NCBI GenBank assembly: GCA_020724545.1
Contig: DYGR01000006.1
Span: 1 to 64,000, forward strand
Direction: 5' to 3'
DNA length: 64,000 nt
Source: Candidatus Methanoperedens nitratireducens
GTDB taxonomy: Archaea; Halobacteriota; Methanosarcinia; Methanosarcinales; Methanoperedenaceae
Below are positions 15,499 through 35,989 of the stretch, piece by piece. Positions within the stretch are counted from its first letter, which is position 1. Every line of letters starts with the position of its first letter. A program made the position numbers and the translations under genes. The notes below the pieces were generated by a model. That model was given only the letters and a program-made list of their open reading frames with translations. It was not told the origin of the DNA and made no database searches.

Positions 15499-15505
15499 TA
15501 TGCGT

Positions 15506-15518
15506 TAATTATATATAT
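15506..15518 (+). promoter_or_regulatory. TATA-like element before the ADH synthase gene
   Basis: TTAATTATATATATC lies about 65 bases before the TTG start at 15577, in the 78-base gap after the roadblock gene. A well-formed AAGGTGA ribosome site is at 15565-15571. Confidence 0.4.
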
Positions 15519-15576
15519 CGAGATTGCCGTGTAACTGTGTTACAGACTAACATGGTTAATAGCTAAGGTGATTTGA

Positions 15577-17504: not shown

Positions 17505-17582
17505 TGATTTTTTAACCACGTCTTGCAACAGGCATTAGTGAAGAGATAAATAGATTATAGAACAGATTAGAATTAGATCCAA

Positions 17583-20119: not shown

Positions 20120-20604
20120 TCAACATCTTTCTTGATAGTGCAGGTTTTGATCTTGCCTTCTATATCTCTGTGCTGGAATATTCGTACCGTTCCTATTTTT
20201 GATAGCCACAAATTGTTACCGCTGATCTCAAAACCGCTTTGAGGATACGTGAACGTATTGTACCTGTTCCTTCCTTTGAACCTTGGATACCCGAAACCGT
20301 TATAGAAATTTTGAAAGCTTCTATCTATTCTTTTGACCACATCCTGGAGTACCTGAGAGTGTACTTCTTTCTGAATATCTGTTTTTGTAGCGGTCAGTTC
20401 TCGTTTCTGGCTGTAGTAATCTATCCATTCAGGCTTTCCCCAAGGAAAAACATCAAATTCCCGCTTTAACCTGTTAAGTTCTGCTTGCCTCCTTCTTTGG
20501 GCAAGAGCATCGTTATAGAGGTGTCTGCATGTGTTAAGTGTTTTATTGAGCTTAGCCTCCTGTTTCTTATTCGGATATATCCTGAAAGTATAGGCTTTTT
20601 TCAT
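20098..20604 (-). pseudogene. Truncated tnpB (N-terminal half only)
   Basis: The minus-strand frame starts MKKAYTFRIYPNKKQEAKLN, the standard TnpB N-terminus (OrfB_Zn-ribbon helix-turn-helix part), and continues through PRFKGRNRYNTFTYPQ to about DQWYAIL. It then leaves the family where the sequence joins the TPR gene; the RuvC and zinc-finger halves are missing. The frame stays open to 20038 only because it runs antisense to the TPR gene. It is a different TnpB lineage from the copy at 8002-9510. Non-functional as a nuclease. Confidence 0.8.
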
Positions 20605-20782: not shown

Positions 20783-21472
20783 TTAAGACTCCCAATCTTC
20801 AGGATCATCATCCAGTTCAGACTCATCTTCCGGGGAACTCGATTGTACCACTGAACTTGATTGCACCACTGAAGATGATGAATTCTGGGAGGATCTGACA
20901 ACTACCATCTGCCTTGAATTATTGGTCACAGAAACAACGGTCACATTGCTCCCATCTCTTGTAACTGTCGCATTGCCGCCTTCAGTGTGCACAGAGACAT
21001 CCCCGTTAACAACGCTGACTTTAACCCTGCTCCCGCCTGAGGAACTGCTCGCCTCAATAATGCTCTGCTGAACGATGCTGATCTTTCCCGTACTTTTTAA
21101 TGCCTTTGTTCTGTTTTTATGTTCCTCTATTTTTTCCTTTATACTGGCCCGAATATTCTCAGTGTTATTATGAACATCCTTTTCTATAATATCCTCAAGG
21201 TCTTCCAGATGACCAGTGTATTCTTTCATAGCCCTTTCAAAGGCTCTTGAGTTGTTCTCTACTTTTTCGGCCTCATCTAGCCGTTTCTCTGCCATATCAA
21301 GCATCTTCTGGGCTTTCTCTGTCTGGCTAAACACAAAATTCAGGCTGAACTTTTCCATCCATATCTTTAAAGGATACAGAAAATCTTCAGGGCTTGTCCA
21401 GAGGGAATTTTCTCTGGCAGCACCAACCTGAGTCAGCAGGATTATTACAATTACTACTGAAATTAGTCTCAT
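20783..21472 (-). CDS. Secreted DUF5667-domain protein (surface operon A, last gene)
   Basis: 229 residues with a signal peptide (about 1-19). The DUF5667 pattern follows: SPEDFLYPLKIWMEKFSLNF, then helices with AQKMLDMAEKRLDEAEK up to about residue 110. The second half is beta/Ser-rich (VKVSVVNGDVSVHTEGGNATV), with repeated QSSSVVQSSS and a strongly acidic tail. It overlaps the PGF-pre-PGF gene by 4 bases and is the terminal gene of copy A; copy B has no counterpart. DUF5667 has no settled function; extracellular location is inferred. Confidence 0.75.
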   Translation of the reverse strand: MRLISVVIVIILLTQVGAARENSLWTSPEDFLYPLKIWMEKFSLNFVFSQTEKAQKMLDMAEKRLDEAEKVENNSRAFERAMKEYTGHLEDLEDIIEKDVHNNTENIRASIKEKIEEHKNRTKALKSTGKISIVQQSIIEASSSSGGSRVKVSVVNGDVSVHTEGGNATVTRDGSNVTVVSVTNNSRQMVVVRSSQNSSSSVVQSSSVVQSSSPEDESELDDDPEDWES

Positions 21473-23946
21473 TTTCTCCCTCCATTCTCGTTTGATATCC
21501 TATGGTTCATTTTAAGATAAATAATCGCACCAATAATTCCAAGCATTAAGATAAAAGCCGCAGGCAGCTTTAAAGCATTACCAGGCGGCTCAACACTTGA
21601 GAGATTTAAATCTGCTGACATCTGGCTTGTGTTGCTTGTGTTATTTGCCGATTCATCTGAAGGCATGGAGATGTTTTGTAGAGATCCAGAGTCTACCTCT
21701 TGTTTTTTAACCCCTGCTATGGCAAAACTGCTGAAGTTCCCGACCAGGCTGGCATAATAGGTATAGTCTTGCTTTCTCTCAACAATCTCAGTTTTCTTCT
21801 CTACCCAGCTTCCTTCCCATTTATACAGGCCTATATCCCCTGGATCGAGATCATTCTCATCAAGCCAGGTGTTGTTGATCCGATAAACCACGACCCCATT
21901 GCCTATCTTCCTGCTAAAGCCGCTCATGCCGGCGAAGATATTGAAGTATTTATAGAATTTGCCCGGAGCATCAACCTCTATCTTTTTTGATCTGTTCTTC
22001 AGTACCTCAACAGCGACCGGCACTCCATTCTCGCTCACACTGCTCTCAAAACTCACCACCATAACAGGATCTGCACTACGGAAGACATAAGCTGATAATG
22101 ATCTGGCAAGTATGTCCATTTCCCTTACCTCCCTCTGCTCTATATTTTTGAAGTCCTCACTGGGCGGCATTCCACCGCCGCCACTGCCGCTACTGCTGCC
22201 GCTGCTACCTCCTCTGGCACCTGAGTTGCTACCTTCATTACTGGGAACAGTGCCTTCGTAGCACTTATTCACACAGATCTTCACGTAATCAGTATCGTAA
22301 ATCATATCCCCGGACTCGGTTGTGCCTGAGAAGTTTGCTATATTTATAATACATGGGTACCCTCTTTCGGTCTCTTCACACTTAAATTTAGATAGGTCAT
22401 TTATCGTAACAGGATAAGTATAGCTTATGTTCTGGGGCTTGTTTGCCTCAAGTTTCTCAATAGAATACTTCTCTTTTCCTGAAACCAGTGAGTATATGGG
22501 ATCATAGATTGAAACATTTGTCAGATTGACAGTACTGTTGGCTTCAAGGGTATAGGTAATGGAGGTTGTACGGCCCTCAATAACTACTGCCGCGCCTCCG
22601 CTGGCCTGTTTTATTCTGAAAATGGGAAGTATTGGAAGCGAGATGGTAGTGATATTAGTGTAGTTAAATGCCCAGGAACCACTCTTGCCTGTAACATCTA
22701 TTTTCAGGGTGAGATTGAAAAATCCCTCTTTACTCTGGATATAATTCACTCCATCAGGCTCTATGTAAAAGGCCAATCTGCATCCTGTGACATTATCCTG
22801 GCACAACTTAGACTCATTTTTTGATAAAGTTACTTTAAAGGATTGATCATCGTGGGATCTATTATTATAGATCTCAGTCACTGTAAGAACCAGCGAGTCC
22901 GCACCCATGTTCTTAAAGGTACTGCTGTACCCGATGAATTTCCCTGTGTGGCCAACCCTGGCATCAACCCACCTCTCAACCCACGTTCCAGCATCATCTA
23001 TCACAGTCGGCTCAATGAATCTTATATCAAGCTCAAGAGGGTAAAAGATATTATTAATACTTGAATTGCTATACGCCGAGGAGTTGCTGGCGTTGAAGCT
23101 GAACACCTGATAATATATTGATTGACCTGTTAACCCATCTATTACGATAGTGGGATTATCAGTATTATTATTCCATGAACTCCAGTTACCATCCTCCAGG
23201 TCCGGATGATAGCCGTACAGTACCCTGTTAGAGCTATAGCTTTGATCTGTAGTCCACTCTACTTTTATGGTGCTGTTAGTTATTATAAATGCCTTAACAT
23301 TATCTATACTCGGGACTGGTACTATCTGGAAATCGGGTGTTTTTGACTGGTTGCTCCAGTTCGATATGGCCAGGGAATCATTAGCCCTCACCCTCCAGTA
23401 ATATGTACCCGGAGATAAAGATAGATCTGAGAAGAGATCAGCAGTATTTCCGGATCTCAGGATATTGGGAAAACCTGACTGATTGCTTAACTGCCAGTCG
23501 TAGGTAAGATTATCTCCATCTTCATCAGTACTGCTCTTCCAGGTAAGCCTGATGTTTCCATCCGATAGATTCTGCCAGTTTACAGGAGCTATTCTTGCTG
23601 GAGATGAGGGAGCACGGTTCACATTATTTACAGTGATGGTAATCTCCTCGCTGTCAGCAAGACCATCAGGATCGGTCACCGTAAAATTAACCCGGTATGT
23701 CCCGGCCTGGGTAAAATCTGGTGTCCAGGTAAATACATGGGTATCAGGGTCAAAGCTTGCCCCTGCTGGTAAATTGCCTGCAGAATACGTCAGGTTCTCA
23801 CCTGTAGCATTGATGGTGAACTGCAGGAGCTCTCCTTCATTTACGGTCTTATTGCCTATGGGTTCCAGTACTGGAGCATCGGCTCTTGCCCCTGAAGAAA
23901 ATAAAAAGATTGAAGAGACCAGAAGTATGATAAGGATATTTTTCAT
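21469..23946 (-). CDS. PGF-pre-PGF domain surface protein (surface operon A)
   Basis: 825 residues. Signal peptide (1-22), cadherin/Ig-like domain (NKTVNEGELLQFTINAT, about 28-110), FN3-like domains (about 112-300), NEW3-like beta domains (about 300-560), a Gly/Ser linker, then the PGF-pre-PGF domain (about 600-765; VPVAVEVLKNRS and GNFSSFAIAG are typical). A C-terminal membrane helix (about 795-815) with a basic tail anchors it, so the bulk faces outward. Paralogue of 27061-29919. The stop overlaps the DUF5667 start. Confidence 0.85.
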   Translation of the reverse strand: MKNILIILLVSSIFLFSSGARADAPVLEPIGNKTVNEGELLQFTINATGENLTYSAGNLPAGASFDPDTHVFTWTPDFTQAGTYRVNFTVTDPDGLADSEEITITVNNVNRAPSSPARIAPVNWQNLSDGNIRLTWKSSTDEDGDNLTYDWQLSNQSGFPNILRSGNTADLFSDLSLSPGTYYWRVRANDSLAISNWSNQSKTPDFQIVPVPSIDNVKAFIITNSTIKVEWTTDQSYSSNRVLYGYHPDLEDGNWSSWNNNTDNPTIVIDGLTGQSIYYQVFSFNASNSSAYSNSSINNIFYPLELDIRFIEPTVIDDAGTWVERWVDARVGHTGKFIGYSSTFKNMGADSLVLTVTEIYNNRSHDDQSFKVTLSKNESKLCQDNVTGCRLAFYIEPDGVNYIQSKEGFFNLTLKIDVTGKSGSWAFNYTNITTISLPILPIFRIKQASGGAAVVIEGRTTSITYTLEANSTVNLTNVSIYDPIYSLVSGKEKYSIEKLEANKPQNISYTYPVTINDLSKFKCEETERGYPCIINIANFSGTTESGDMIYDTDYVKICVNKCYEGTVPSNEGSNSGARGGSSGSSSGSGGGGMPPSEDFKNIEQREVREMDILARSLSAYVFRSADPVMVVSFESSVSENGVPVAVEVLKNRSKKIEVDAPGKFYKYFNIFAGMSGFSRKIGNGVVVYRINNTWLDENDLDPGDIGLYKWEGSWVEKKTEIVERKQDYTYYASLVGNFSSFAIAGVKKQEVDSGSLQNISMPSDESANNTSNTSQMSADLNLSSVEPPGNALKLPAAFILMLGIIGAIIYLKMNHRISNENGGRK

Positions 23947-24008
23947 GACAATTTCTCCACAGATAGCGTCACCCTACAGGCGAAAGAGGTCTTGGAAAAC
24001 CTATTCGT

Positions 24009-24986
24009 TCAATCGCTTATCATCCTCATTTCCAGACCCTTTATTTTCATGCCGTTTAAGGGCACTTCTACCTCTCCCTCGAATCCACGCATTCTGGGAA
24101 CAGTGTAGCTACCAATCTCAATGCTCTGCTTCTCTGGTATTTTGATTTCACTATTGAAATTTTCTTCCATCAATTTGAATTGAACCCCTTCAGTATTGAT
24201 TCTCTCAACACTTCCATCGATATCCGGGATATTAATTCTCGGCGTCAGATCCAGCATAAGTGTAGCATTATAGGTCTGTTTACCGAAGTTATGAGCGTAG
24301 AACTTTATTTTCAGGCTGTCGTTCACCCTTGTTATGTTCCATTTTGTAAGAGTAATATGTGGTGTGAGGTTCTCAGGAGGGAAAACATTGTATTCCGACT
24401 CAAGATAATCCAGCATATAATAATCGCGGTCAGTTGCACTTCCATTGAATATTCTCTTGGCGATTTTTTCAGCGCAAAGGGGCAATCCACCTTTGCCATC
24501 AGTCGCTTTTCCGCAGAACGTCCATGTGCCCATTTGATCTTCTTGATTCGCCTTGGGATCAGGGAATAGGATTTTCTTTAATCCTCCAACAATCTGCTTC
24601 AGATACAGGTTCTCTGAGTTTCTGATATTGATCGTCTGGTTCACATCGCCCTTGTTCCACTGCCATATGAAACCTGAATCACCGATACTGTCCAGATTAA
24701 GGGTCCTCTCCTCATAGGGCATATCACCGGATTCACCCCATTGGATGATGCTTCCATTCCTGATATTATCATAAGAGACCGTCTGGGTAACGCTCCCGTC
24801 TGATGAATAGCCTATCTGTCTTGATTCAGCAGTATCAAAACCCGACACCAGAGCATCCTGACTGGAATCCCCCATTATGTCTACCGCAAACTGAACGAGC
24901 TGGGCTGAACTCATGTTCTCCTCAGCCGCCGCTGTTCCGGCTGCTAATACCATCAGACATGCTGACAGCAGATAAATCCATCTCAT
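24009..24986 (-). CDS. Secreted protein with N-Q-T strand motifs (surface operon A)
   Basis: 325 residues, paralogue of 29939-30877. Signal peptide ending near TAAAEE, then a segment of short strands with alternating polar residues (GSVTQTVSYDN, GDVNQTINIRNSENLYL), a conserved FCGK...LPLC cysteine pair, EYNVFPPENLTP, and a C-terminal beta-sandwich (about 220-325). I chose the ATG at 24986 because GGTGAG lies just upstream; the GTG at 24998 adds four residues. The N-terminal strand motif is shared with the small protein upstream, suggesting the two interact. Unknown family. Confidence 0.72.
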   Translation of the reverse strand: MRWIYLLSACLMVLAAGTAAAEENMSSAQLVQFAVDIMGDSSQDALVSGFDTAESRQIGYSSDGSVTQTVSYDNIRNGSIIQWGESGDMPYEERTLNLDSIGDSGFIWQWNKGDVNQTINIRNSENLYLKQIVGGLKKILFPDPKANQEDQMGTWTFCGKATDGKGGLPLCAEKIAKRIFNGSATDRDYYMLDYLESEYNVFPPENLTPHITLTKWNITRVNDSLKIKFYAHNFGKQTYNATLMLDLTPRINIPDIDGSVERINTEGVQFKLMEENFNSEIKIPEKQSIEIGSYTVPRMRGFEGEVEVPLNGMKIKGLEMRMISD

Positions 24987-24998
24987 TATGCTCACCAC

Positions 24999-25415
24999 TC
25001 AGCCGATAAGCACTATGATATCCTGGTCCAGGATCTGCACATTATCATCCACCAGAACTTCAATACCCTGGGCAATGCTGCCAGAGCCCGAGTTATTTCC
25101 ATACTGGTCAAGGTCGATCACGATACGATTAAGTCCTTTAATCGTATTGTTTATATCAGCTGCATAATCTGGATCTAAAACAAGCGAACTATTCATGAGC
25201 ACCAGCTTGCTGTCCTGGTCGATCATCTGGTAATTCCCTGTTACATGAATGCCTATATCCTGGTTTATATCACCGCTGCCGTAGTTCCATGCTACCTGGT
25301 CTACCCTGACCAGCACCATGTTCTCACCTCTTAGATTTGCGTTCTGGTTGATATCCGCCACTGCGGGAACCATTAAGATCAGAATTACTGCCAGCATCAT
25401 CAATATTTTCTTCAT
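24999..25415 (-). CDS. Small secreted Asn/Gln-patterned protein (surface operon A)
   Basis: 138 residues with a signal peptide ending PAVA. The mature part repeats a strand pattern with Q and N at fixed places: DINQNANLRG, NYGSGDINQDIGIHV, NYQMIDQDSKLVL, NNSGSGSIAQGIEV, NVQILDQDIIVL. This resembles the spaced Gln/Asn ladder of curlin-type repeats but is not a clear match to them. Start at 25415 after a strong GGAGGTGA; the frame's earlier start lies inside that ribosome site. Paralogue of 30887-31300. Possible fibre subunit (inference). Confidence 0.72.
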   Translation of the reverse strand: MKKILMMLAVILILMVPAVADINQNANLRGENMVLVRVDQVAWNYGSGDINQDIGIHVTGNYQMIDQDSKLVLMNSSLVLDPDYAADINNTIKGLNRIVIDLDQYGNNSGSGSIAQGIEVLVDDNVQILDQDIIVLIG

Positions 25416-25466
25416 CTCACTCACCTCCAATTTAAATAATTTAACTAAAAAAATATAAAAAATGGA

Positions 25467-25492
25467 TTAGAGGATAGTTTTATCTCCCCTAA
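25467..25492 (-). other. Imperfect hairpin between subunit genes, operon A
   Basis: TTAGAGGATA (25467-25476) pairs with TATCTCCCCTAA (25481-25492) apart from two extra bases. It lies in the 76-base gap after the acidic protein gene, the same place where copy B has two stronger hairpins. Possible 3' stability or attenuation element. Confidence 0.35.
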
Positions 25493-25507
25493 ATCCCCTA
25501 TCAGGTT

Positions 25508-26131
25508 TTAAGCCGAGAGCTTGTTCTTATCTTCAAATGCGTCGTCGCCTGCTACAACCGCGATTCCATCAACTTCGTTGTTCTCAAATAATATGGAGTC
25601 ATCGATGTCTATCTTCTGGAACTCATCTATCTTGACAGTCTGAATAAGTTTCTGGTTGATATCAGTTTTTGCAAAGGCTTTCTGAACAACAGCATTATCT
25701 TGTTTGACATCCTTTACATTGGAATCTCCGCCATTGGCAATAGCCTTGGAGTCAGCCCAGGCGAAATTATCTGCCTTACTATCAGCATCGCACTTGGATT
25801 TAGCCTTGGCAGTATTTGAAGCTTTACTGTGATCTTCAGCCTCAGCATCTCCAGCCTCAGCAGTAGCCGGGCACTTATTGGTAGCATCACCGCTCTTTGC
25901 ATCATTATCATTCGCTGCTATGGATACCGCTGTTGCATCACCGGCTTTGCTAGTAAGCACATTTGTCAGGTCACCTTCATTGATCAGTTTCTGCGTTGTA
26001 GTGCTTGTGGCAGCGTTAAAGCCACTTATATCTATATCGATTGCCTTCTTGTTCGTTGGATTAGCCATCGCAGGGACAGCCATCCCTATTACTGTTGATA
26101 CCAACAGTAACAGTACTAATATTTTCTTCAT
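25508..26131 (-). CDS. Acidic low-complexity secreted protein (surface operon A)
   Basis: 207 residues. Signal peptide to about PAMA, a conserved block (IDIDISGFNAATSTTTQKLI), a central Ala/Asp/Lys/Ser low-complexity region with repeated SKAD and AGDA motifs, then the Q-patterned strands DVKQDNAVVQKAF and DINQKLIQTVKI. Both flanking blocks align with the 785-residue protein of copy B (31427-33784), whose middle has expanded enormously. Good GAGGTG ribosome site upstream. Secretion is predicted; function unknown. Confidence 0.72.
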   Translation of the reverse strand: MKKILVLLLLVSTVIGMAVPAMANPTNKKAIDIDISGFNAATSTTTQKLINEGDLTNVLTSKAGDATAVSIAANDNDAKSGDATNKCPATAEAGDAEAEDHSKASNTAKAKSKCDADSKADNFAWADSKAIANGGDSNVKDVKQDNAVVQKAFAKTDINQKLIQTVKIDEFQKIDIDDSILFENNEVDGIAVVAGDDAFEDKNKLSA

Positions 26132-26155
26132 ATTTTACACCTCTTATATATCTCT

Positions 26156-26192
26156 GCCCGGCTCTCCAGCAGGGACTGCTGGCCAACCGGGC
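26156..26192 (-). other. Strong composite hairpin upstream of the acidic protein gene, operon A
   Basis: The outer stem GCCCGG/CCGGGC (26156-26161 with 26187-26192) encloses a 7-bp inner stem CCAGCAG/CTGCTGG (26166-26172 with 26176-26182). It lies between the tRNA-like element and the ribosome site of the next gene. Copy B has a simpler GCCCGGC hairpin at the same place. Confidence 0.6.
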
Positions 26193-26196
26193 CACT

Positions 26197-26245
26197 TACG
26201 CCCCCGGGGTTTGAACCCGGTCACTCCGGCCTGCCGACAGGCGTA
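26197..26245 (-). ncRNA. tRNA-like element (acceptor stem plus T-arm) at the lipoprotein 3' end, operon A
   Basis: On the minus strand TACGCCT (26245-26239) pairs with GGGCGTA (26203-26197) as a 7-bp stem with one G-T pair. Directly inside its 3' strand is a T-arm, CCGGG-TTCAAAC-CCCGG (26220-26204), whose loop fits the TTCRANY rule of tRNAs. There is no anticodon arm. The lipoprotein stop codon falls immediately before the T-arm, and the acceptor 5' strand is coding. An equivalent element is at 33840-33888. Resembles t-elements cut by RNase P or tRNase Z in other systems. Confidence 0.55.
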
Positions 26246-26769
26246 TCAAATGTAACGTTCCATGCAGCCCTCTTTACCACAGTATCGTTCTCAGAGATCT
26301 GGACGAGCATCATGACATAGCTGACGTTTCCCTTTGGCGTCAGGGAGAAATTCTGAGTCCAGTTACCATCGGCAATGTACGTTATATTGGTCTGATTGTA
26401 CCACTCCCGCCCCAGATCAGGCTTGAATATCGTAAGCACGGTATCATTCAGCCTGGGATTTATGATCTTTAACGTGATCGTCAGCCTGCCGGTTCTATTG
26501 AATTCATTGTTCCTGAGGATCAGAAGTATCTGGTTTGGCGAACTTGCCATGTCTATATCTTGCTCGCTTATACTGGAGGAAGCCAGCGCCAGGGTCATGT
26601 TGTTATCGCTGATATTCTGGTCAGGGAGATTTTCATCTGTAAGCTCATTTCCAGGCTCACTTTCCCGATCTATGCATCCCCCCAGCGCCAGTACGAGGAT
26701 CAGCATTCCCAGGATTCTCCAGAACATGGAAACGGATGTTAATCCTTTTATAGTTGACCTACAGTCCAA
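26221..26769 (-). CDS. Lipoprotein heading surface operon A
   Basis: 182 residues. TTG start with GGAGG upstream; the first codons align with the copy B paralogue (33864-34439), which also starts with TTG, so this start is preferred over an internal ATG. Lipobox LALGGC, a polar Asn/Asp/Ser linker (about 33-75), then a beta-sandwich domain (about 78-182) containing REWYNQTNITYI, WTQNFSLTPKGN and the conserved end VVKRAAWNVTFDTPVGRP. Predicted to be lipid-anchored outside the membrane. First gene of the operon and the part followed by the tRNA-like element. Confidence 0.75.
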   Translation of the reverse strand: MDCRSTIKGLTSVSMFWRILGMLILVLALGGCIDRESEPGNELTDENLPDQNISDNNMTLALASSSISEQDIDMASSPNQILLILRNNEFNRTGRLTITLKIINPRLNDTVLTIFKPDLGREWYNQTNITYIADGNWTQNFSLTPKGNVSYVMMLVQISENDTVVKRAAWNVTFDTPVGRPE

Positions 26770-27060
26770 ATTTTTTCCTCCCTTTTTACGATGCCCACAA
26801 CCATCTTTTTGTTTTCAAATCCATTAGTTTATAAACAGTCTTTTAAGATATTTATAAATCTGTCAAGGATTTTTAGTCACACATCAATAACCTAGTATTA
26901 CCCGATACTTTATAAACCATTAAGAAAAGATACTAGATGACAGAAGCACATAACAACAGCATAATTCAAATACACATATCACTGACATCTACTCTAGAAT
27001 AGTTCTTGAGTTTTCTTCGTTTATCTACGGTTTATTTTGTTCAAAAATTGTTTTGATCGT
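26770..27060. promoter_or_regulatory. Intergenic region between surface operons B and A
   Basis: 291 bases. On the minus strand it holds the presumed promoter of operon A: TTTATAAAT near 26850-26858 and GTTTATAAAC near 26829-26838 are TATA candidates. AT-rich remainder without an ORF; the last part is the 3' flank of operon B. No clear terminator hairpin seen. Confidence 0.4.
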
Positions 27061-29919
27061 TTAAGAACCTGATCGCAGCATTTTAAGGTAATAGATTATT
27101 CCTATTATCCCAAAAAAGAGAATAAAAGCTACTATCAACTGCAAGTTTCTTCTAATCGGTTTAACATCCTGGGGATCTGGATCATCTGATGTTTGTGTGA
27201 TGTTCTCTGTTGATTCATCTGAAGGTACGGAGATCTCTGGCATAGATCCAGAAGCTACATCCTGTACAGTTACCTCCTGTTTTTTAATACCTGCTATGGC
27301 AAAACTGCTGAAATTCCCGACCAGGCCTGCATAATAGGTATAATTTTGCTTGCTCTCAACGATCTCAGTACTCTTTTTCACCCATTTCCCCTCCCATTTA
27401 TACAGGCTTATATCCTCAGGGTCCAGGTCATTCTCCTCAAGCCAGGTGTTGTTGACACGGTAAGCCACAACACCTTTACTCACCTTCTTGCTAAAACCGC
27501 TCATACCAACAAAGATATTGAAGTAATTATAGAGTTTGCCCGGAGCATCAACCTCTATGTGTTTTGATCTGTTCCTCAGTACCTCAACAGCGACTGGCAC
27601 TCCGTTCTCGCTCACACTGCTCTCAAATGCTACCACCATAACAGGGTCTGCCGCATTGAAGACGTATGCTGGTGATGATCCGGCGGGTATGTCCATTTCC
27701 CTTACCTCTCTTCGTTCCATGTTATTGAAGTCCTCACTGGGCGGCATTCCACCGCCGCCACCGCCCCCGCCACCACTACTACCTCCGCTGCCTCCTCCAC
27801 CGCTGCTTCCTCCGCTGCTTCCTCCGCTGCTGCCTCCGTCTCCTCCGCTCCCGCTACTACCACCGCTTCCACCGCTTTCACTGCCAGTGACAGTGCCGGA
27901 TGGGAAGCAGTTTGTATCTGTATCCTTACATACATATAACTCTATATAATCAGTATCACTGATCTTGACACCGGATTCAGTTTCACCTGTGAATGTTGCC
28001 AGATTTATAATACATGAATACGACCCTTCGCATTTGAATTTAGATAAATCACCGGTTGTAGCAGGATAAGAAAAGCTTATATTACTGGGTATGTTAGCCT
28101 CAAGTTTTGAGACATTAAAGTACCCCTGGTTCTCTGGATAAAGCGGATCATAAATAGAAACATTTGTTAAATTGATGGCACTGCTGGCTTCAAGCGTATA
28201 AGTAACAGTGGTAGTCCTGCCTTCACTGACCACGATCGCATCCGTATTTGCTTGTTTTATCTTGAGAATGGGGTTTATCGGAAGTGAGATGGAAGTGGTA
28301 TTAGTGTAGTTAGATGTCCAGGTACCGTTCTGCTGACCTCTAACATTTACTTTTATAGTAAAATTAAAGAACCCATCTTTAATCTCAGTGGAATTTATTG
28401 GAAATGCCGGTCTTCCGAAGGCCTGCATATAGGACTTGGACTCGTTCTTCTCCAGTATTGATGTAAAGGGTCCCCTCGATTCGTTACCATTGATCTCAGT
28501 TACCGTAAGAACAAGCGAATCATTCCCTGTATTATTAAAGGTGCCGTCGATTCCAATAAATTTGCCTGCATGGCCTGCCTCTGCATCACGCCATGTCTTT
28601 ACCCATGTTCCGTTATGATTAATTACATACGGCTCGATAAATCTAAGATCAATATCCAGAGGATCATTAACTGTTACTTTTATGGTCTCGCTGGCTATCC
28701 CACCGTAACCGTCACTGCTGTTGAATTCCCACATATACACTCCTGTATCGCTCTCATCCGTGGTCCAATTGTAGACCCCGGTACTGCTATTCAGGCTACC
28801 CTTCGTTGCATTGGTTCCGTAGGTTATAGGATCTGAATCTGCATCGGTTGTATTTATGAGCAAATCCAGTGTCTGACCTGTGTACACCACCCTGTCCCCT
28901 ATAATGGATTGGTTGGGAGGATTGTTAGGTACCCGGGTATCCTGGGATATACCCTGGCCTAAGACATTAAAAGTACTGTTCCATCCATAAACTGTAATAT
29001 TTCCCCAGCCGTGCGGGCCTACAGTATGATTGGTAAATGTTTCCGAACTTCCATTACTCCACCTATCATTGAAACTAACATTAAACGAATCCGTATTCAC
29101 TCCTTTTTCCCATGTGTAACTTACCCAGAAATTGCCTGTACTGTTCTGTAAATTCTCAGGCTTCCTGGGCTCCCCGGGCTCAAAGGTCGTATTATTCCCT
29201 GTTGTATTATCCTCTGTCGCATTATCCTCTGTCGTATTATCCCCTGTCGTATTATCCTCTGTCGTATTATCCCCTGTCGTATTGTCCCATGTTGCATGAT
29301 CTCCTCCGACTGTTATGGTTGCTGGGTATTCTGAGACAGACCCGTACCTGTCCCGTACTCTGAATACCCAGTAGTATGTACCCTCGTCACCCTTCTGTGT
29401 TGTCCATTTGAAAACTCCTGTCCATTTATCCAGTGTGCCTTTTGTTGCACTTGTTGTAAATATGCCTGTATCGTCATCTGCATCCTCGTAATCAAAATCT
29501 AGATACACAGTCTGTCCTTCTTTGCCTGACCAATCCGATGTGTTGGTTATTATGATGGGGTTATTGGGTATCGTATCGTTGAACCAGACTTTTGTCGGGT
29601 TAACATTCCCATATATATCTACCGTTTGAGCGCTGATATTCTGTTTATAATGTGGCCGCCAGGTAAGGTTAAGATAATTAACAGGTGCGCTAACATTTTG
29701 CAGCGTACCACCACTCTTATACCTGAACCATATGTGACTGAGATACGTATCTTCAGGGTTGGTCCATGTGTTGTTTATATAGAAGTTGCCAGTTGTTGTC
29801 CGGGGATTGGATACATTGCCGCTCACACTATAACCATTAGAGGCACTTGCTCCTAAAAAAGGAATTAAAAAAAGGATTAAGAGAACAGCGAGTCCGATTA
29901 TTATATTTTTAAGATCCAT
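27061..29919 (-). CDS. PGF-pre-PGF domain surface protein (surface operon B)
   Basis: 952 residues. Start at 29919 after GGGGGAG; the longer frame would overlap the previous gene. Signal peptide (to about ASAS), a GNFYINNTW module almost identical in layout to one near base 118, cadherin/Ig-like domains, a (T/E)DNTT pentapeptide repeat (15-base DNA repeats near 29200-29290), more beta domains, a long Gly/Ser linker, then the PGF-pre-PGF domain (VPVAVEVLRNRS, GNFSSFAIAG) and a C-terminal membrane helix with basic tail. Paralogue of 21469-23946, about 130 residues longer through extra modules. Last gene of operon B. Confidence 0.85.
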   Translation of the reverse strand: MDLKNIIIGLAVLLILFLIPFLGASASNGYSVSGNVSNPRTTTGNFYINNTWTNPEDTYLSHIWFRYKSGGTLQNVSAPVNYLNLTWRPHYKQNISAQTVDIYGNVNPTKVWFNDTIPNNPIIITNTSDWSGKEGQTVYLDFDYEDADDDTGIFTTSATKGTLDKWTGVFKWTTQKGDEGTYYWVFRVRDRYGSVSEYPATITVGGDHATWDNTTGDNTTEDNTTGDNTTEDNATEDNTTGNNTTFEPGEPRKPENLQNSTGNFWVSYTWEKGVNTDSFNVSFNDRWSNGSSETFTNHTVGPHGWGNITVYGWNSTFNVLGQGISQDTRVPNNPPNQSIIGDRVVYTGQTLDLLINTTDADSDPITYGTNATKGSLNSSTGVYNWTTDESDTGVYMWEFNSSDGYGGIASETIKVTVNDPLDIDLRFIEPYVINHNGTWVKTWRDAEAGHAGKFIGIDGTFNNTGNDSLVLTVTEINGNESRGPFTSILEKNESKSYMQAFGRPAFPINSTEIKDGFFNFTIKVNVRGQQNGTWTSNYTNTTSISLPINPILKIKQANTDAIVVSEGRTTTVTYTLEASSAINLTNVSIYDPLYPENQGYFNVSKLEANIPSNISFSYPATTGDLSKFKCEGSYSCIINLATFTGETESGVKISDTDYIELYVCKDTDTNCFPSGTVTGSESGGSGGSSGSGGDGGSSGGSSGGSSGGGGSGGSSGGGGGGGGGMPPSEDFNNMERREVREMDIPAGSSPAYVFNAADPVMVVAFESSVSENGVPVAVEVLRNRSKHIEVDAPGKLYNYFNIFVGMSGFSKKVSKGVVAYRVNNTWLEENDLDPEDISLYKWEGKWVKKSTEIVESKQNYTYYAGLVGNFSSFAIAGIKKQEVTVQDVASGSMPEISVPSDESTENITQTSDDPDPQDVKPIRRNLQLIVAFILFFGIIGIIYYLKMLRSGS
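29190..29295 (-). repeat. 15-bp tandem repeats coding D/E-N-T-T
   Basis: About seven units of the form ATTATCC(T/C)CTGTCGT on the plus strand, giving the (E/G)DNTT repeat. A simple variable-number repeat inside the operon B PGF-pre-PGF gene. Confidence 0.75.
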
Positions 29920-29938
29920 TTCTCCCCCATTCAAGCAG

Positions 29939-30877
29939 CTATCCACTTATCATCTTCATTTTCATGTTCTTTACTTTCATACCATCAAGAGGTACTACTA
30001 CTTCTCCCTCTATCTCCTTCATGCTGGGAACCGTGTATCTCCCGATCTCAACGACCTTCTTATCAGGCACCTTAATCTCCCAATTCTGCGCATCTTCTGC
30101 CCTGAAAGTCTTTCCATCTCCATCAAAACCTTCTATATCAATCTTCGGGATAATGTCCATCATAAGGGTCGCATTGTAGGTCTCCTTACCAAAGTTATGT
30201 GCCCTGAACTTTATAGTGAGGTTATCACCTGCTCTGGTTATATTCCACTTTGTCAGTATTACACGGGGCGTAAGATTCTCAGGAGGGAAAACATTGTAAT
30301 CTTCCTCAAGAACATGCAGCATATAATAATCCCGCGGAGTGGCTTTTCCTTCTAATATCCTCTTGGCTATTTTTTCAGCGCACAGAGGCAGGCCCCCTGT
30401 ACCGTTTACCGCCTTACCGCAGAACCACCAGTCACTGGCCATCTCTTTATCAGGATCAGGGAAGAGGATCTTCCTTAACCCTCCCATGATCTGCCTTAGA
30501 TACAGGTTCTCGGAGTTTGTAATATTGATCGTCTGGTTCACATTGCCCTTGTTCCACTGCCATGTTAGGCCTGGATCTCTCACACTATCTATAAACATAG
30601 TCCTCTCCTCACGGGGCATATCTCCAGATTCGCCCCACTGAATAACGCTTCCATTCTCGATATTATCATAAAAGATCGTCTGGGTAACATTGCCATCTGA
30701 TGAATAGCCTATCTGGCTTGAATTGGCAATCCCAAAGCCTGAGATCTGTGCATCCTGGCCTGAGTCCCCCATCATATCCACCGCCAGTTGAGCAAGCTGG
30801 GCAGAACTCATATCTTCCTCAGCAGCCGCCATGCCCATGACCAATAGACCTGTAAATAGCCAGACCCATTTCACCAT
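29939..30877 (-). CDS. Secreted protein with N-Q-T strand motifs (surface operon B)
   Basis: 312 residues, paralogue of 24009-24986. Signal peptide ending MAAAEE; MSSAQLAQLAVDMMGDSGQDAQ; strands GNVTQTIFYDN and GNVNQTINITNSENLYL; Cys pair FCGK...LPLC; DYNVFPPENLTP; C-terminal beta domain. Ribosome site GGAGTAAGC sits at the previous stop, so translation is coupled. Strong conservation of the strand part and the Cys pair suggests a folded partner of the fibre-like subunits (inference). Confidence 0.72.
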   Translation of the reverse strand: MVKWVWLFTGLLVMGMAAAEEDMSSAQLAQLAVDMMGDSGQDAQISGFGIANSSQIGYSSDGNVTQTIFYDNIENGSVIQWGESGDMPREERTMFIDSVRDPGLTWQWNKGNVNQTINITNSENLYLRQIMGGLRKILFPDPDKEMASDWWFCGKAVNGTGGLPLCAEKIAKRILEGKATPRDYYMLHVLEEDYNVFPPENLTPRVILTKWNITRAGDNLTIKFRAHNFGKETYNATLMMDIIPKIDIEGFDGDGKTFRAEDAQNWEIKVPDKKVVEIGRYTVPSMKEIEGEVVVPLDGMKVKNMKMKMISG

Positions 30878-30886
30878 GCTTACTCC

Positions 30887-31300
30887 TTACTCTCCGGCAA
30901 TGGCCACTATGACATCCTGATCCAGCATCTGTATATTATCCTCTATTGTAACTTCAATACCCTGGGCGACATTGCCAGACCCCATGTTCTTTGTATACTG
31001 GTCCAGATTGAGTATTACGAGATTAGTCCCGTTCATGGTATTGCTTATATTACTTGAGTGATCAGAGTCAGAGATAAGTATTATACTGTCCTGGGATACC
31101 ATCTGGTAATTTCCTGCTGCAACAACGTCTATATACTGGTTTACATCTCCACTGCCGTAGTTCCAGGCCGTCTGCTTTACATTGATCTCTATTACATTAT
31201 CGCCTGTCATCTTTGCTTTTTGATTGATATCTGCAAGTACAGGGATTGCCAGAATCAGGATTACCGACAGTACAGCCAGAATTTTCTTTATACTACTCAC
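30887..31300 (-). CDS. Small secreted Asn/Gln-patterned protein (surface operon B)
   Basis: 137 residues, paralogue of 24999-25415: signal peptide ending PVLA, then DINQKAKMTGDN, NYGSGDVNQYIDVV, NYQMVSQDSIILI, KNMGSGNVAQGIEV, NIQMLDQDVIVAI. The start is uncertain. The GTG at 31300 lies inside what looks like the ribosome site (GGGGGTGA), and the codon aligned with the ATG of copy A is ATA (31285-31287). Unknown family; possible fibre subunit. Confidence 0.68.
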   Translation of the reverse strand: MSSIKKILAVLSVILILAIPVLADINQKAKMTGDNVIEINVKQTAWNYGSGDVNQYIDVVAAGNYQMVSQDSIILISDSDHSSNISNTMNGTNLVILNLDQYTKNMGSGNVAQGIEVTIEDNIQMLDQDVIVAIAGE

Positions 31301-31330
31301 CCCCGGTTACTGTAACTATGCTAAGGGGAA

Positions 31331-31415
31331 TAGAGGAAGGTTTTGCCTTCCTCTAGACCTTGTAGCTGTAGCTTTATGGATCAGATCACTGTTGAAGCTC
31401 ATAGAGCTCCAACAG
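31331..31415 (-). terminator. Two hairpins after the giant repeat gene, operon B
   Basis: TAGAGGAAGG/CCTTCCTCTA (31331-31340 with 31346-31355) is a perfect 10-bp stem with a 5-base loop. CTGTTGAAGCTC/GAGCTCCAACAG (31389-31400 with 31404-31415) is a 12-bp stem with one mismatch and a 3-base loop. They fill the 3' flank between the repeat gene and the next gene. No T-run follows, so stabilisation or attenuation is as likely as termination. Confidence 0.5.
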
Positions 31416-31426
31416 TGCTTTCTACC

Positions 31427-33784
31427 TCACCGTCTTATGTCTGTTCTCTCCTCTCGTATATCTGTTATCTCTGTTGTTTCCTCTGTTGTTTCCTCTGTTG
31501 TCTCTATATCTGTCTCCTCTGTTGCGTCTGCGGTTGCTTCTGAGTCTGTATCTGTGGCTGCATCTGAGGCTGCATCACCTGCTGCATCTGAGGTTACATC
31601 TGTCTCTGCATCTGAGGCTGTGTCTGTTGCTGCATCTGAGGTTATATCTGTCTCTGCATCACCTGTTGCATCTGTTGCTGCATCTGATGTTGTATCTGCG
31701 GTTGCATCTGATGTCGTATCTGTTGCTGCATCTGATGTTGTATCTGTTGCTGCATCACCTGTTGCATCTGTTGCTGCATCCGATGTTGTATCTGCGGTTG
31801 CATCTGATGTTGTATCTGTCGCTGCATCTGAGGATATATCCTTGGTTATATCTGAGGCTGTGTCTGTCGCTGCATCACCTGTTGCATCTGTGGTTGCGTC
31901 TGAGGCTGTGTCTGTTGCTGCATCTGATGTTGTATCTGCTGTTGCGTCTGAGGCTGTGTCTGTTGCTGCATCTGATGTTGTATCTGCTGCTGCGTCTGAG
32001 GCTGTGTCTGTTGCTGCATCAACTGATGGATCACTGGTTGCTTCAGATGTTGCATCTGAGGCTGCATCAACTGATGGATCACTGGATGCTTCAGATGTCG
32101 GATTTGCCTCTGCATCTATATCTCCGCCGCTAGCGTCTCCATAGTAGTCTATGGTTGCTGTCTGGTCAAGTCTCTGATCATTGTCGATCTCTGCCCAGGC
32201 GATCTGCACATTGGCATTTACCTGCGTGACATCGCCGTCGAATCCCTTAGGATCTCCGCCAGTGGCAGTAGCTGTGCTGTCGCCGCTATCTCCACCATTG
32301 GTTTCAACTACGGCATCTACGCTGCCGTCGGTTGTGCTTTCGCCGCCAGTGCCTTCGCCGCCGTCACCGCTTGTGCTGTCTCCTGCTCCATCGCCCTGTC
32401 CAGTGCCTTCGCCAACGCTGTCAGCGTCTCCGCCTGTGGCTTCGCTGCTGGCATCGCCTTCACCGGTGGCCTCGCTTTCGACATCGATTTCGCTCGCGCT
32501 CTCAGCTTCTCCGCCTTCGCCAACACTTTCGACATCACCGCGGCCTTCTGCCGTGCTCCTGGCCTCGCCGCTTTCGCTCTCTCCGCCTTCACCAGCTCTG
32601 CTATCAGCATCACCGAACTCATCGCTATCGCTCCGAGCTTCGCCGCCTTCGCCGCCAACGCTCTCGCCGCTCGTGGCTTCGCTCACGCCTTCGCCAGTGC
32701 CTTCAGCAACGCTGCTTCCTTCGCCGCCAAGGCCTTCACTGTCGCCTTCGCCAGTTGCAACGCTCTCGCCTTCGCCAGTTGCAGTGCCAACGCTGTCAGC
32801 ATCTCCGCCAACGCTCTCGGCTTCGCCTGTGCCGGTACCGGTGCCTTCACCAGTAGCTGTGCTGTCGCCGCTGTCGCCGCCAAGTCCTTCGCCGCCGTCG
32901 CCGCCCTCAACGTCATAGTCTATATCTGAGCTTGTCGTTGCATCTGTCCTTGAGTTCGAGCTTGAGCCTGCTACCGCGTTACCGCCTACTGCCGATCCCC
33001 TTGCAGAATTTTCCTGGTCGCCAGTTGTTTGCCTCTGGTCTACAGAGTTGGTGGCTATGTTGTTTCCATCCATGTCTACAGCGATATCTGTAGAAGCGGT
33101 TCCCCCTGCAGCATCAGCGTCTGTTGTCCCCAGGGCTTCCGACTCAGCGGTACCTGTGACATCAGCGTTAGTGGTCCCTGTGCCTGTTGCATCAGCAGTT
33201 CCTGCTACATCAGACTCAGTAGTCCCTGTGCCTGTTGAGTCAGCTGTCCCTGAGACATCAGCGTCAGTGGTACCTGTGCCTGCTGAGTCAGCGGTCCCTG
33301 CTACATCAGACTCAGTAGTCCCTGTGCCTGTTGAGTCAGCTGTCCCCGCGACATCAGATTCAGCAGTCCCTGCTACATCAGAATCTGTTGTCCCTGCTAC
33401 ATCAGACTCAGTAGTCCCTGTGCCTGTTGAGTCGGCTGTTCCCGCTACATCAGACTCAGTAGTACCTGCTACATCAGAATCTGTTGTCCCTGCGGCTTCA
33501 GAGTCGGTAGTTCCTGTGCCTGTTGCATCAGCAGTTCCTGCTACATCAGACTCAGTAGTACCTGCTACATCAGACTCAGCAGTTCCTGTGCCTTCCGAGT
33601 CAGCAGTTCCCGTGGCTGCAGAGTCAGTAGTCCCTGTGCCTGTTGAGTCAGCTTCTCCTGTGGCTGCAGAGTCAGAAGTCCCTGCTACATCAGAAGCTGC
33701 ATCAGCCGTTGGTTGAGCTGCTGCTGGAAGTATCAGTCCTATAGCTATCGACACTATCAGTATTAGTGTCAGTGCTTTCTTCAT
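31427..33784 (-). CDS. 785-residue acidic repeat protein (surface operon B)
   Basis: Signal peptide ending AAAQ; an octapeptide repeat of form VAGTTESD (residues about 30-225, over 20 units); a conserved block (TDIAVDMDGNNIATNSVDQRQ) shared with the copy A homologue; a Gly/Glu/Asp/Ser-rich stretch (about 270-510) nearly without hydrophobic residues; a Q-patterned strand block (DVTQVNANVQIAW, DQRLDQTATIDYYG); and a C-terminal tetrapeptide repeat with Asp every fourth residue (TSDAATDT type, about 570-750), ending in an arginine-bearing tail. No Cys. Strong GAGGTGA ribosome site. Homologue of 25508-26131 with a vastly expanded middle. Likely an extended, highly charged, possibly cation-binding extracellular polymer. 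Confidence 0.75.
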   Translation of the reverse strand: MKKALTLILIVSIAIGLILPAAAQPTADAASDVAGTSDSAATGEADSTGTGTTDSAATGTADSEGTGTAESDVAGTTESDVAGTADATGTGTTDSEAAGTTDSDVAGTTESDVAGTADSTGTGTTESDVAGTTDSDVAGTAESDVAGTADSTGTGTTESDVAGTADSAGTGTTDADVSGTADSTGTGTTESDVAGTADATGTGTTNADVTGTAESEALGTTDADAAGGTASTDIAVDMDGNNIATNSVDQRQTTGDQENSARGSAVGGNAVAGSSSNSRTDATTSSDIDYDVEGGDGGEGLGGDSGDSTATGEGTGTGTGEAESVGGDADSVGTATGEGESVATGEGDSEGLGGEGSSVAEGTGEGVSEATSGESVGGEGGEARSDSDEFGDADSRAGEGGESESGEARSTAEGRGDVESVGEGGEAESASEIDVESEATGEGDASSEATGGDADSVGEGTGQGDGAGDSTSGDGGEGTGGESTTDGSVDAVVETNGGDSGDSTATATGGDPKGFDGDVTQVNANVQIAWAEIDNDQRLDQTATIDYYGDASGGDIDAEANPTSEASSDPSVDAASDATSEATSDPSVDAATDTASDAAADTTSDAATDTASDATADTTSDAATDTASDATTDATGDAATDTASDITKDISSDAATDTTSDATADTTSDAATDATGDAATDTTSDAATDTTSDATADTTSDAATDATGDAETDITSDAATDTASDAETDVTSDAAGDAASDAATDTDSEATADATEETDIETTEETTEETTEITDIREERTDIRR
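31500..32110 (-). repeat. 12/24-bp tandem repeats encoding the Asp-every-fourth-residue tail
   Basis: Dozens of 12-base units (GCATCTGATGTT-like on the plus strand) coding xSDx/xTDx tetrapeptides. The plus strand shows long spurious open frames through this low-complexity DNA. Confidence 0.85.
33100..33690 (-). repeat. 24-bp tandem repeats encoding the VAGTTESD octapeptide
   Basis: Over 20 units, seen on the plus strand as recurring CCTGCTACATCAGACTCAG and CCTGTGCCTGTTGAGTCAG blocks. Two unit types (VAGT-type and GTGT-type) alternate irregularly, suggesting repeated unequal exchange. Confidence 0.85.
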
Positions 33785-33815
33785 GTATTCACCTCGTTTC
33801 TTTTTATTCTATTGT

Positions 33816-33835
33816 GCCCGGCACTATTGCCGGGC
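33816..33835 (-). other. GC-rich hairpin upstream of the giant repeat gene, operon B
   Basis: GCCCGGC (33816-33822) and GCCGGGC (33829-33835) form a perfect 7-bp stem with a 6-base loop, between the tRNA-like element and the ribosome site of the repeat gene; counterpart of the hairpin at 26156-26192. Confidence 0.6.
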
Positions 33836-33839
33836 CAAA

Positions 33840-33888
33840 TACGCCCCCGGGGTTTGAACCCGGTCAGTTCGGCCTGCCGACAGGCGTA
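33840..33888 (-). ncRNA. tRNA-like element at the lipoprotein 3' end, operon B
   Basis: Same structure as at 26197-26245: TACGCCT (33888-33882) pairs with GGGCGTA (33846-33840), and the T-arm CCGGG-TTCAAAC-CCCGG occupies 33863-33847, directly after the lipoprotein stop. The middle differs at a few bases (CGAAC versus CGGAG around the stop codon), while both stems and the T-loop are unchanged. Confidence 0.55.
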
Positions 33889-34439
33889 TCAAATGTAACA
33901 TTCCATGCAGCCCTCTTTACCACAGTATTATTCTCAGAAACCTGGACAAATATGTGGACATAGCTGGTATTCCCTTTCGGTTTTATGGAGAAGCTCTTGG
34001 TCCAGCTACCGTTGTTGATGCGAGTCACCCTTGCCTTGTTATACCACTCAGAACCGAACTCTGGCCTGAACGCCGTAAGCACTGTCTCGTTCATCCTGGG
34101 ATTGATGATCTTTACCGTGACCGGGAGCTTGCCAGTCTTCTGGAACTGCTTTTGATTTAGAATTAAACGTATCTGGTTTGGTTCTGATTTGTTGGATGCA
34201 GATTTTGTCTTAGTCAGGCTATTCACACTTATATTCCCGTCAGGAAGTCCTGCGCCCATCTCATTTTCCTTACCTGTCAGGGTGAGGTTATCCCCGCTGG
34301 TATTCTGGTCAGAAGACCCTACACCCAGCTTACTTTCACCGTCAATACATCCCCCCAGGGCAGATATGAGTAACAGTATCCCGATAACTCCACCTATCCT
34401 GGTAAATAATAGTCTTACTGATGTTGATTTGTTATCCAA
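33864..34439 (-). CDS. Lipoprotein heading surface operon B
   Basis: 191 residues, TTG start, GGGGAT upstream. Lipobox ISALGGC; polar linker (about 35-85); beta-sandwich domain with SEWYNKARVTRI, WTKSFSIKPKGN and the C-terminal block VVKRAAWNVTFDTPVGRP identical to copy A. Codons in this last block are also nearly identical between copies, whereas the rest of the genes has diverged. Confidence 0.75.
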   Translation of the reverse strand: MDNKSTSVRLLFTRIGGVIGILLLISALGGCIDGESKLGVGSSDQNTSGDNLTLTGKENEMGAGLPDGNISVNSLTKTKSASNKSEPNQIRLILNQKQFQKTGKLPVTVKIINPRMNETVLTAFRPEFGSEWYNKARVTRINNGSWTKSFSIKPKGNTSYVHIFVQVSENNTVVKRAAWNVTFDTPVGRPN

Positions 34440-34696: not shown

Positions 34697-35989
34697 ATGA
34701 AAACAGTAATTATTGGCGCAGGACTGGCAGGGCTTGCTGCTGCATACAGGCTTGTGGAGAGTGACGAAATAGTGATCATAGAGAGAGAGCCTGAACCTGG
34801 CGGCATGGCATCAAGTTACAGTATAAAGACCCCGGATACGGGGACATATCATATCGAGGAATACTATCACCATATCTTTGCAGGCGATAAGGAACTCATA
34901 GCGCTCATATATGAGCTTGGTCTTGGGGACAGGCTTGAGTGGCAAAGAGGTACAACAGGATACTACTTTAACGGCAGGATATATCCGATGAACACTCCTT
35001 TTGAGATCCTAAGAGCCCTTCCACTGGTGGATGTTATCAGGCTGACACTGCTCGTGCTGAGGGCAAAAGCCATAAAAGACAGGTCTCATTACGACAATAT
35101 AACAGCAAGGGAGTGGATATACGATACTGCAGGTGAATCGGTATATAATAATTTCTTTGAGCCCCTGCTTCAGAGCAAGTTCGGGGACAATAAAGAAAAA
35201 GTATCAGCAGCATGGCTATTAGGACGTGTGCAGATACGCTCAAACAGGGGGACAAAAGGTGAAAGGCTGGGTTATATGCGCGGTGGTTTTAATGCACTTA
35301 TAGAGGCTATGGCAGATAACATCAGGAAAAAAGGGGGTAAGATAGTAAACGGCACTGTATTGCAGATCGAGGTCTCGGATGGTTCTGTGCAGGGCATTGT
35401 TGTGGATAAGGAGTATATCAGGTGCGACAGGGTTATTTCAACAGTCGCCCCCCGTGTTCTGGAAAAAATAATCGATACAGGGCTTTTGGGATGTAATCTG
35501 GATATCAGCTACCAGGGTACAGCATGCGCGCTATTTGGATTGACAGAAAGGATCATGGATGATATATACTGGCTCAATATCAAAGAGGATGTGCCTTTTG
35601 GCGCTGTGATAGAGCATACCAACTTTATCCCTGCATCGGATTACGGAGAGCATCTCATGTATGCGACCTCGTATTTCCAGAGCCCTGACAGCGTTCTGTG
35701 GAGATCATCTGATGAAGAGGTGATCGAATTATACCTTGGCGGACTTGAGAAGCTCTTCCCTGGATTCAGGGAAAAGGTGAAATGGTGGCGCCTGCGCCGT
35801 GATATGGATACTGCGCCTGTGTATGAGACAGGATACGGGAAAAAGATCCTGCCGTATGTAACAGGTATAAAAGGACTTTATCTGGCAGGCATGTTCTCGC
35901 AGGCGAATTATCCAGAGAGGAGCATGAACGGCTCGATAGTGGCAGGGTTTAAGTGTGCTTTTTATACACACTTCCTGAGCCTGAGTTGA
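34697..35989 (+). CDS. FAD-dependent oxidoreductase, amine oxidase/desaturase-like
   Basis: 430 residues. Dinucleotide-binding GAGLAGLAAAYRL at residue 6 and the ERExxPGG continuation (IEREPEPGGMASS) place it in the flavin amine oxidase/protoporphyrinogen oxidase-like superfamily; the C-terminal FAD block GLYLAGMFSQANYPERSMNGSI is present. HHIF and YMRGGF segments resemble members acting on lipids or sugars (UDP-galactopyranose-mutase-like). The substrate cannot be told from sequence. No signal peptide; cytoplasmic. Preceded by a TATA-like TTTTTTATAT and the CATATG repeats. Confidence 0.82.
   Translation: MKTVIIGAGLAGLAAAYRLVESDEIVIIEREPEPGGMASSYSIKTPDTGTYHIEEYYHHIFAGDKELIALIYELGLGDRLEWQRGTTGYYFNGRIYPMNTPFEILRALPLVDVIRLTLLVLRAKAIKDRSHYDNITAREWIYDTAGESVYNNFFEPLLQSKFGDNKEKVSAAWLLGRVQIRSNRGTKGERLGYMRGGFNALIEAMADNIRKKGGKIVNGTVLQIEVSDGSVQGIVVDKEYIRCDRVISTVAPRVLEKIIDTGLLGCNLDISYQGTACALFGLTERIMDDIYWLNIKEDVPFGAVIEHTNFIPASDYGEHLMYATSYFQSPDSVLWRSSDEEVIELYLGGLEKLFPGFREKVKWWRLRRDMDTAPVYETGYGKKILPYVTGIKGLYLAGMFSQANYPERSMNGSIVAGFKCAFYTHFLSLS

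Follow-up and report, generated by a model that had tools for sequence, protein, structure and literature searches.

We analysed a window of 64,000 nucleotides from Candidatus Methanoperedens nitratireducens (contig DYGR01000006.1, positions 1 to 64,000), in which two related operons of predicted cell-surface proteins lie side by side on the minus strand. Each encodes, in the same order, a lipoprotein, an acidic low-complexity protein, a small protein with a ladder of Gln and Asn residues (N/Q-ladder), a larger ladder-bearing protein that we call the 310-type protein, and a PGF-pre-PGF protein, and each carries a tRNA-like RNA element and a GC stem-loop at the junction of the first two genes. 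Copy B extends from 34439 to 27061 and copy A from 26769 to 20783, leaving a gap of 291 bases. In copy B, the lipoprotein (33864..34439, 191 amino acids (aa), lipobox LGGC), identified by its open reading frame (ORF) and a conserved family alignment, is followed by the tRNA-like element (33839..33888), the stem-loop (33812..33838) and the ORFs of the acidic protein (31427..33784, 785 aa), the small protein (30887..31300, 137 aa), the 310-type protein (29939..30877, 312 aa) and the PGF-pre-PGF protein (27061..29946, 961 aa). Copy A comprises the lipoprotein (26221..26769, 182 aa, again from ORF and family alignment), the element (26196..26245), the stem-loop (26156..26192), the ORFs of the acidic (25508..26131, 207 aa) and small proteins (24999..25430, 143 aa), the 310-type protein (24009..24998, an ORF of 329 aa with a likely ATG start at 24986), the PGF-pre-PGF protein (21469..23946, 825 aa) and a predicted secreted DUF5667 protein (20783..21472, 229 aa) that occurs in type A loci only. 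The ORFs lie where the original prediction, made from the bare sequence, had placed a five-gene set present twice with shared order and strand. It was also right that copy B lacks the DUF5667 protein, as DUF5667 (PF18915) exceeded its gathering cut-off of 27 in copy A only (54.9 bits), and that copy B has the longer repeats, with 24/48-bp DNA repeats enlarging its acidic protein.

No other part of the locus has evolutionary evidence of function as strong as the tRNA-like element, which that prediction had overlooked. The lipoprotein-acidic junction carries the identical CCGGGTTCAAACCCCGG in copies A and B, and in all 13 operons identified (see below) an element of 50 nt spans the stop codon of the lipoprotein gene shortly before the acidic gene begins. 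It consists of a 7-bp acceptor-like stem, whose 5' strand falls within the last lipoprotein codons, a 4-bp D-like hairpin and a 5-bp T-arm with a 7-nt TTCAAAC loop that abuts the stem as in tRNA; there is no anticodon arm. The core that tRNA-processing enzymes recognise is likewise a canonical T-loop set directly against a 7-bp acceptor stem. The minimum free energy fold is the tRNA-like structure in both window copies and similar in most others tested. Pairing was found in 89-91% of the alignment cells, as compared to 24-55% when the structure was slid, and five pairs covaried, with 12-13 cells changed on both sides versus 3.8-3.9 in shuffles, a count reached by 0/500 of them. The element is well supported as a conserved structured RNA.

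A covariance model recovered the elements of all 13 operons at 58-75 bits (74.7 bits in copy B, 71.0 bits in copy A), while T-arms alone gave about 20 bits. Four additional elements, scoring 37-50 bits on contigs G000:C77 and G015:C2, stand in front of different genes for secreted low-complexity proteins, whose signal peptides are of the same kind, and upstream of these elements we saw only a possible relic of a lipoprotein tail. All 17 elements are located upstream of a secreted-type gene. The GC hairpin follows within a few bases, immediately 3' of the element in copy B and right after it in copy A, and precedes a Shine-Dalgarno-like stretch and the gene; its sequence is present in 17/17 cases and folded in 16/17, the sole case without a folded hairpin (G007:C188) nonetheless retaining the sequence. 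Within the class searched, strong elements were confined to the eight operon-bearing genomes, and the sole match of the model in viral contigs was a real tRNA-His. ARAGORN reported no tRNA at the elements of the window or of loci L145 and L146. The Rfam family mascRNA-menRNA (RF01684) matched both window copies end to end (22.2 and 20.9 bits, E 1.2 and 2.8), but its gathering score of 42.5 was reached by neither, and no such match was listed in three further loci; Rfam matches to isrG, miRNA and pestivirus families in the repeats were sub-threshold and taken as chance or low complexity. RNase P and RNase Z process mascRNA/menRNA as well as the mitochondrial and engineered Haloferax t-elements. 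Our element shares with these RNAs the acceptor stem and T-arm, a shortened D side and the missing anticodon arm, but differs in its place in an archaeal operon or leader mRNA before secreted-protein genes, in its sub-threshold Rfam score and in that cleavage is here putative.

Further tRNA-like elements, sub-threshold at 25-28 bits and with no ARAGORN tRNA, were seen at ~1501-1550 of loci L147, L148 and L155 (genomes G110, G118 and G133, respectively), where they sit in a conserved module resembling a mobile element; in L147 a hairpin follows. Clusters of secreted low-complexity proteins at 8865-11331 of L145 (G000:C77) and 7303-11687 of L146 share one type of signal peptide (MRKLLILALLVS..PAMA) and differ greatly in their bodies, with NV-rich, RER-rich and HKKFDD repeats. 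L145 also contains a CRISPR array (15461-17961) with many identical copies of a repeat like CRISPR-DR39 (sub-threshold), ~5 kb downstream of two tRNA-like leaders and low-complexity genes.

Among the proteins, the small one carries the most regular pattern. Its mature form in copy A has 118 aa, and in an alignment of 13 sequences all nine Gln residues are invariant (9/9, hypergeometric P 2e-7), the invariant columns being mostly Gln, Asn and Gly. Even positions are the conserved ones and odd positions vary, with a column entropy of 0.49 against 1.59 in the first half of the protein (P 2e-4) and of 0.61 against 1.50 in the second (P 1e-3), as expected for predicted strands with one face in a core; these tests of the Q/N pattern were picked after the pattern had been seen, and the orthologues are not independent. 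The protein is an internal duplication, with an offset of 64 residues in copy A, because a hidden Markov model of half 1 matches half 2 in 13/13 sequences at 30-45 bits (best shuffle 10.8). Each half follows N-x-Psi-x-Psi-x-Psi-x-Q-x3-N-x3-G-x-Psi-x-Q. No homologue of the small protein was found among solved structures. A weak motif common to the small and 310-type proteins scored up to 12 bits against 11 for the best shuffle, and profile-profile comparison of the small, 310-type and acidic proteins gave nothing significant except a signal peptide match.

The 310-type protein combines a second ladder with further domains. Invariant Gln residues occupy mature positions 12, 23, 37, 48, 62, 97 and 111, the first five being spaced 11/14/11/14, which 68/20000 shuffles matched. 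AlphaFold2 placed nine strands over residues 7-113 of the copy A protein, with a pLDDT of 79-94 in a block covering mature residues ~21-120, and seven of the nine predicted strands hold an invariant Gln. The N-terminus was hence modelled as a confident strand ladder, the overall topology of which is not visible in the model, and the remainder as helical parts and three-strand pairs of Ig-like character; copy B is assigned the same Gln-ladder N-terminus, helices and Ig-like C-terminus by homology to the copy A model. Only de novo designed beta proteins matched among solved structures (E 0.04). Of the three proteins for which the original prediction had claimed regularly spaced Q and N strands, two, the small protein and the 310-type N-terminus, have conserved Gln/Asn ladders. 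An ordinary fold, of the kind that it had named as a refutation, is seen in the Ig-like C-terminal region of the 310-type protein.

In copy A we considered stop-codon readthrough from the small into the 310-type gene, as the small-protein TGA is in frame and conserved. Simple coupling of the two genes is more likely, because an ATG lies 12 nt further on. At 24980-25005 (minus strand) and in orthologues, the in-frame TGA recurs in several type A loci and its spacing to the 310-type ATG is conserved, suggesting translational coupling.

The other products point to the cell surface. Signal-peptide-like N-termini suggest secretion. Both PGF proteins matched PGF_pre_PGF (TIGR04213) above its cut-off of 28 (101.4 and 102.1 bits; 2.8e-29 in copy B) and have a C-terminal transmembrane (TM) segment, and that of copy A contains He_PIG/PKD-type Ig domains. 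They resemble PGF-pre-PGF surface proteins in this match, and differ from them in lying in an operon with ladder proteins, with a C-terminal TM segment in place of an established sorting signal. The lipoprotein and the PGF-pre-PGF/TM protein would probably serve as anchors. No operon product resembled a secretion channel. The proposed secretion and assembly set is accordingly borne out as a conserved operon with predicted secreted and anchored products; it includes nothing like a channel, and polymerisation of the products is only presumed.

To follow the gene set across genomes, we searched 31 Methanoperedens genomes with the small protein, the 310-type protein and the lipoprotein. It is present in 8/31, at 13 loci, some of which are cut by contig ends, and the order is kept where contigs allow; the lack of such conservation had been set beforehand as a refutation. 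The small protein had no occurrence outside these loci in 238 genomes of the class, and a search of the phylum sample with the 310-type N-terminus gave no further genuine relative, since a match in G322 (E 0.003) sits in a peptidase-like beta-propeller protein. An order-level tblastn match in G031 (E 0.003) received no support from the profile search. Viral, phage and plasmid relatives were looked for and none was found. So far, the operon has been found only in Methanoperedens.

Copies A and B are 52% identical in the lipoprotein, 52% in the small protein, 64% in the 310-type protein and 45% in the PGF protein (tblastn alignments). The acidic proteins had no reported match to each other; by eye they have in common an N-terminal block and a Q-rich C-terminal core. 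The two types lie in tandem only in the window and in G015 (Ca. M. nitroreducens ANME-2d). The copies are better read as old, diverged paralogues that are neighbours here than as a recent tandem duplication, because G005, G007 and G009 each have their type A and type B loci on different contigs, and because A-like and B-like sequences form distinct groups across species in the small-protein tree, with moderate support. The expected tandem duplication therefore stands for the placement in the window and fails as a recent event. In the 310-type tree, the two copies of G005 group together and likewise those of G009, with limited support, which could mean gene conversion.

Several neighbours recur. 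In the window (34697-35989) and in L015, L017, L019 and L021, the neighbours go with the operon type: a divergent FAD-dependent oxidoreductase-like gene adjoins type B operons, and a Fae-like gene is found near the type A-like operons of G005, G007 and G009. Surface-type proteins with related C-termini adjoin the operon in three genomes (L022 12482-17133, L023 4350-6843 and L024 4860-6299); L022 and L023 also have a neighbouring protein whose CFKCH motif is of the heme-binding type. Immediately downstream of copy A, an ORF of transposase-like, OrfB/IS605-type appearance occupies 20038-20604 (minus strand).

Taken together, we read the locus as a cell-surface assembly operon that exists as two paralogous types and uses an RNA module to organise its expression, a reading that we hold tentatively and put just short of an even chance. 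The small protein and the 310-type N-terminus would form Gln/Asn-ladder beta-arch modules, most likely stacking into an extracellular fibre or coat, which is a reasonable hypothesis. The Ig-like C-terminus of the 310-type protein may decorate, cap or dock this fibre, the acidic low-complexity protein would contribute a hydrated matrix or a spacer, and the lipoprotein together with the PGF-pre-PGF/TM protein would hold the assembly at the membrane. The module before the acidic gene, a mini tRNA-like element plus GC hairpin, would organise expression. Where an acceptor stem and a T-arm form a tRNA-like structure, RNase P cuts on its 5' side and tRNase Z on its 3' side. Because the element overlaps the end of the lipoprotein gene, an RNase P cut at its 5' end would remove the lipoprotein stop codon; a tRNase Z cut at its 3' end would release a subunit message whose 5' end is clean and capped by the hairpin. 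Processing would then favour the subunits at the expense of the lipoprotein, and a ribosome translating the lipoprotein would open the element, so that processing and lipoprotein translation may be coupled.

A number of results speak against this picture. The structure model of the small protein is of low confidence (pLDDT 47), and Foldseek with the 310-type model returned low TM-scores and Ig-like or enzyme matches, with no significant curli or solenoid among them. PF07012, the curlin family, was absent from the genome of the window at E<=10 and gave nothing over its cut-off in the 31 genus genomes, with E. coli as positive control, and hhalign with CsgA/CsgB gave a probability of about 1% or less and hence no sequence homology to curlin. 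On the RNA side, some copies fold with modest z-scores (-0.6, +0.4), the outermost acceptor pair fails in 7/13 sequences and the next in 4/13, and cotranscription of the lipoprotein and acidic genes is an assumption of the model.

The similarity to curli deserves separate consideration, since the curlin-like character without a match that the original prediction had described was found, with like Gln/Asn spacing in two proteins and a negative curlin profile. The operon shares with CsgA/CsgB short strands, conserved Gln/Asn, alternate-residue conservation and the adjacent encoding of a small and a second ladder protein. The published curlin half-kernel is N-x-Psi-x-Psi-x-Q (PMC10192328); five such half-kernels occur per 310-type protein as compared to 0.8-1.3 expected from shuffles, together with a QX10Q spacing in its N-terminus and one loose kernel per protein (P about 0.02). 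These features could make the operon a true archaeal branch of curli, which we regard as exceedingly improbable: besides the missing PF07012 match, the strict kernel N-x-Psi-x-Psi-x-Q-x-G-x-x-N-x-Psi-x-Psi-x-Q occurs 0 times here versus 5 in CsgA and 3 in CsgB, Pfam curlin at E<=1 had no match in the operon proteins scanned (all but acidic B), and a scan covering the operon products only revealed no CsgE/F/G-like family. The ladders also differ in kind, with N-x7-Q and 11/14 spacing, a small-protein half one step longer than the curlin half-kernel and an additional C-terminal domain in the 310-type protein, all in an archaeal host. The operon may work like curli; membership of curli is not supported. 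Alternatively, the products could form a monomeric or oligomeric adhesin or S-layer-associated complex, in which the ladders are compact beta-solenoid domains and the acidic protein a stalk. We consider this quite possible, if rather doubtful. It would suit the helical and Ig-like parts of the 310-type protein, the Ig domains of the PGF protein and the composition of acidic B, which is like the repeat stalks of surface adhesins with profile scores far below cut-offs; moreover, beta-solenoids are common in non-fibre proteins according to the curli authors (PMC10192328). Yet the small protein has no obvious cap, the residues of the ladders do not vary within the genus, and the small Q/N gene adjoins a larger Q/N-bearing partner, like a subunit/nucleator pair. 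Compared by literature only, the archaeal sheath amyloids (SH of Methanospirillum/Methanothrix, MspA) are likewise archaeal, secreted, beta-rich surface-layer proteins, and Ig-like decorations are known for SH as Ig-like parts are present here; a survey (PMC11576556) names Methanotrichales, Methanomicrobiales, ANME-1 and Thermofilales, and Methanoperedens does not appear in it.

Most likely, the element serves either as a processing site for RNase P/tRNase Z or to protect the 5' end, and would thereby make expression of the subunits independent of that of the lipoprotein. Cleavage would be analogous to that of engineered t-elements, which are cut by the RNase P/tRNase Z route in Haloferax (PMC4946936). 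RNase P also acts on bacterial operon mRNAs and mascRNA precursors (PMC4919922); the bacterial polycistronic case is alike in being operon mRNA processing, but here a conserved tRNA-like module with covariation overlaps the upstream stop codon. The specific version, in which a portable leader of mini-tRNA and GC hairpin is cut by tRNA-processing enzymes such that any one transcript gives the anchor lipoprotein or the fibre subunits but not both and RNA processing sets the ratio of the two, is an idea we put forward with some reserve, as one that may well be wrong. Its main rival is a purely structural 5'-end role, with the element as a cap, stabiliser or control structure of translation or termination that is not cut by either enzyme; we think this somewhat unlikely. 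An AT-rich, possibly promoter-like stretch just upstream of the elements on C77 and C2 would fit a transcript starting near the element, and the second GC hairpin suits 5' stabilisation, but a plain hairpin needs no conserved T-loop abutting a 7-bp acceptor stem. That the element is no longer functional, being what is left of a decayed tRNA or an integration scar, might be suggested by its tRNA look, with no anticodon arm, and by the lipoprotein-tail relics flanking the extra copies. This is very improbable, as the stems are kept by compensatory changes across eight genomes, in fixed position and architecture before the same gene class.

Methanoperedens, which drives the anaerobic oxidation of methane, lives in aggregates and in biofilms on anodes. 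In the open-access literature, we found no work naming its extracellular matrix proteins and no report of the operon or of the tRNA-like leader in Methanoperedens, and as far as found there, the leader has no earlier description among natural archaeal mRNAs. It represents a conserved RNA motif for which none of the Rfam families scores above its own threshold, and a candidate case of tRNA-processing enzymes that shape natural archaeal mRNAs. The operon in turn provides concrete candidates for matrix proteins, and its two Gln/Asn-ladder proteins would be a curli-like design in this group.

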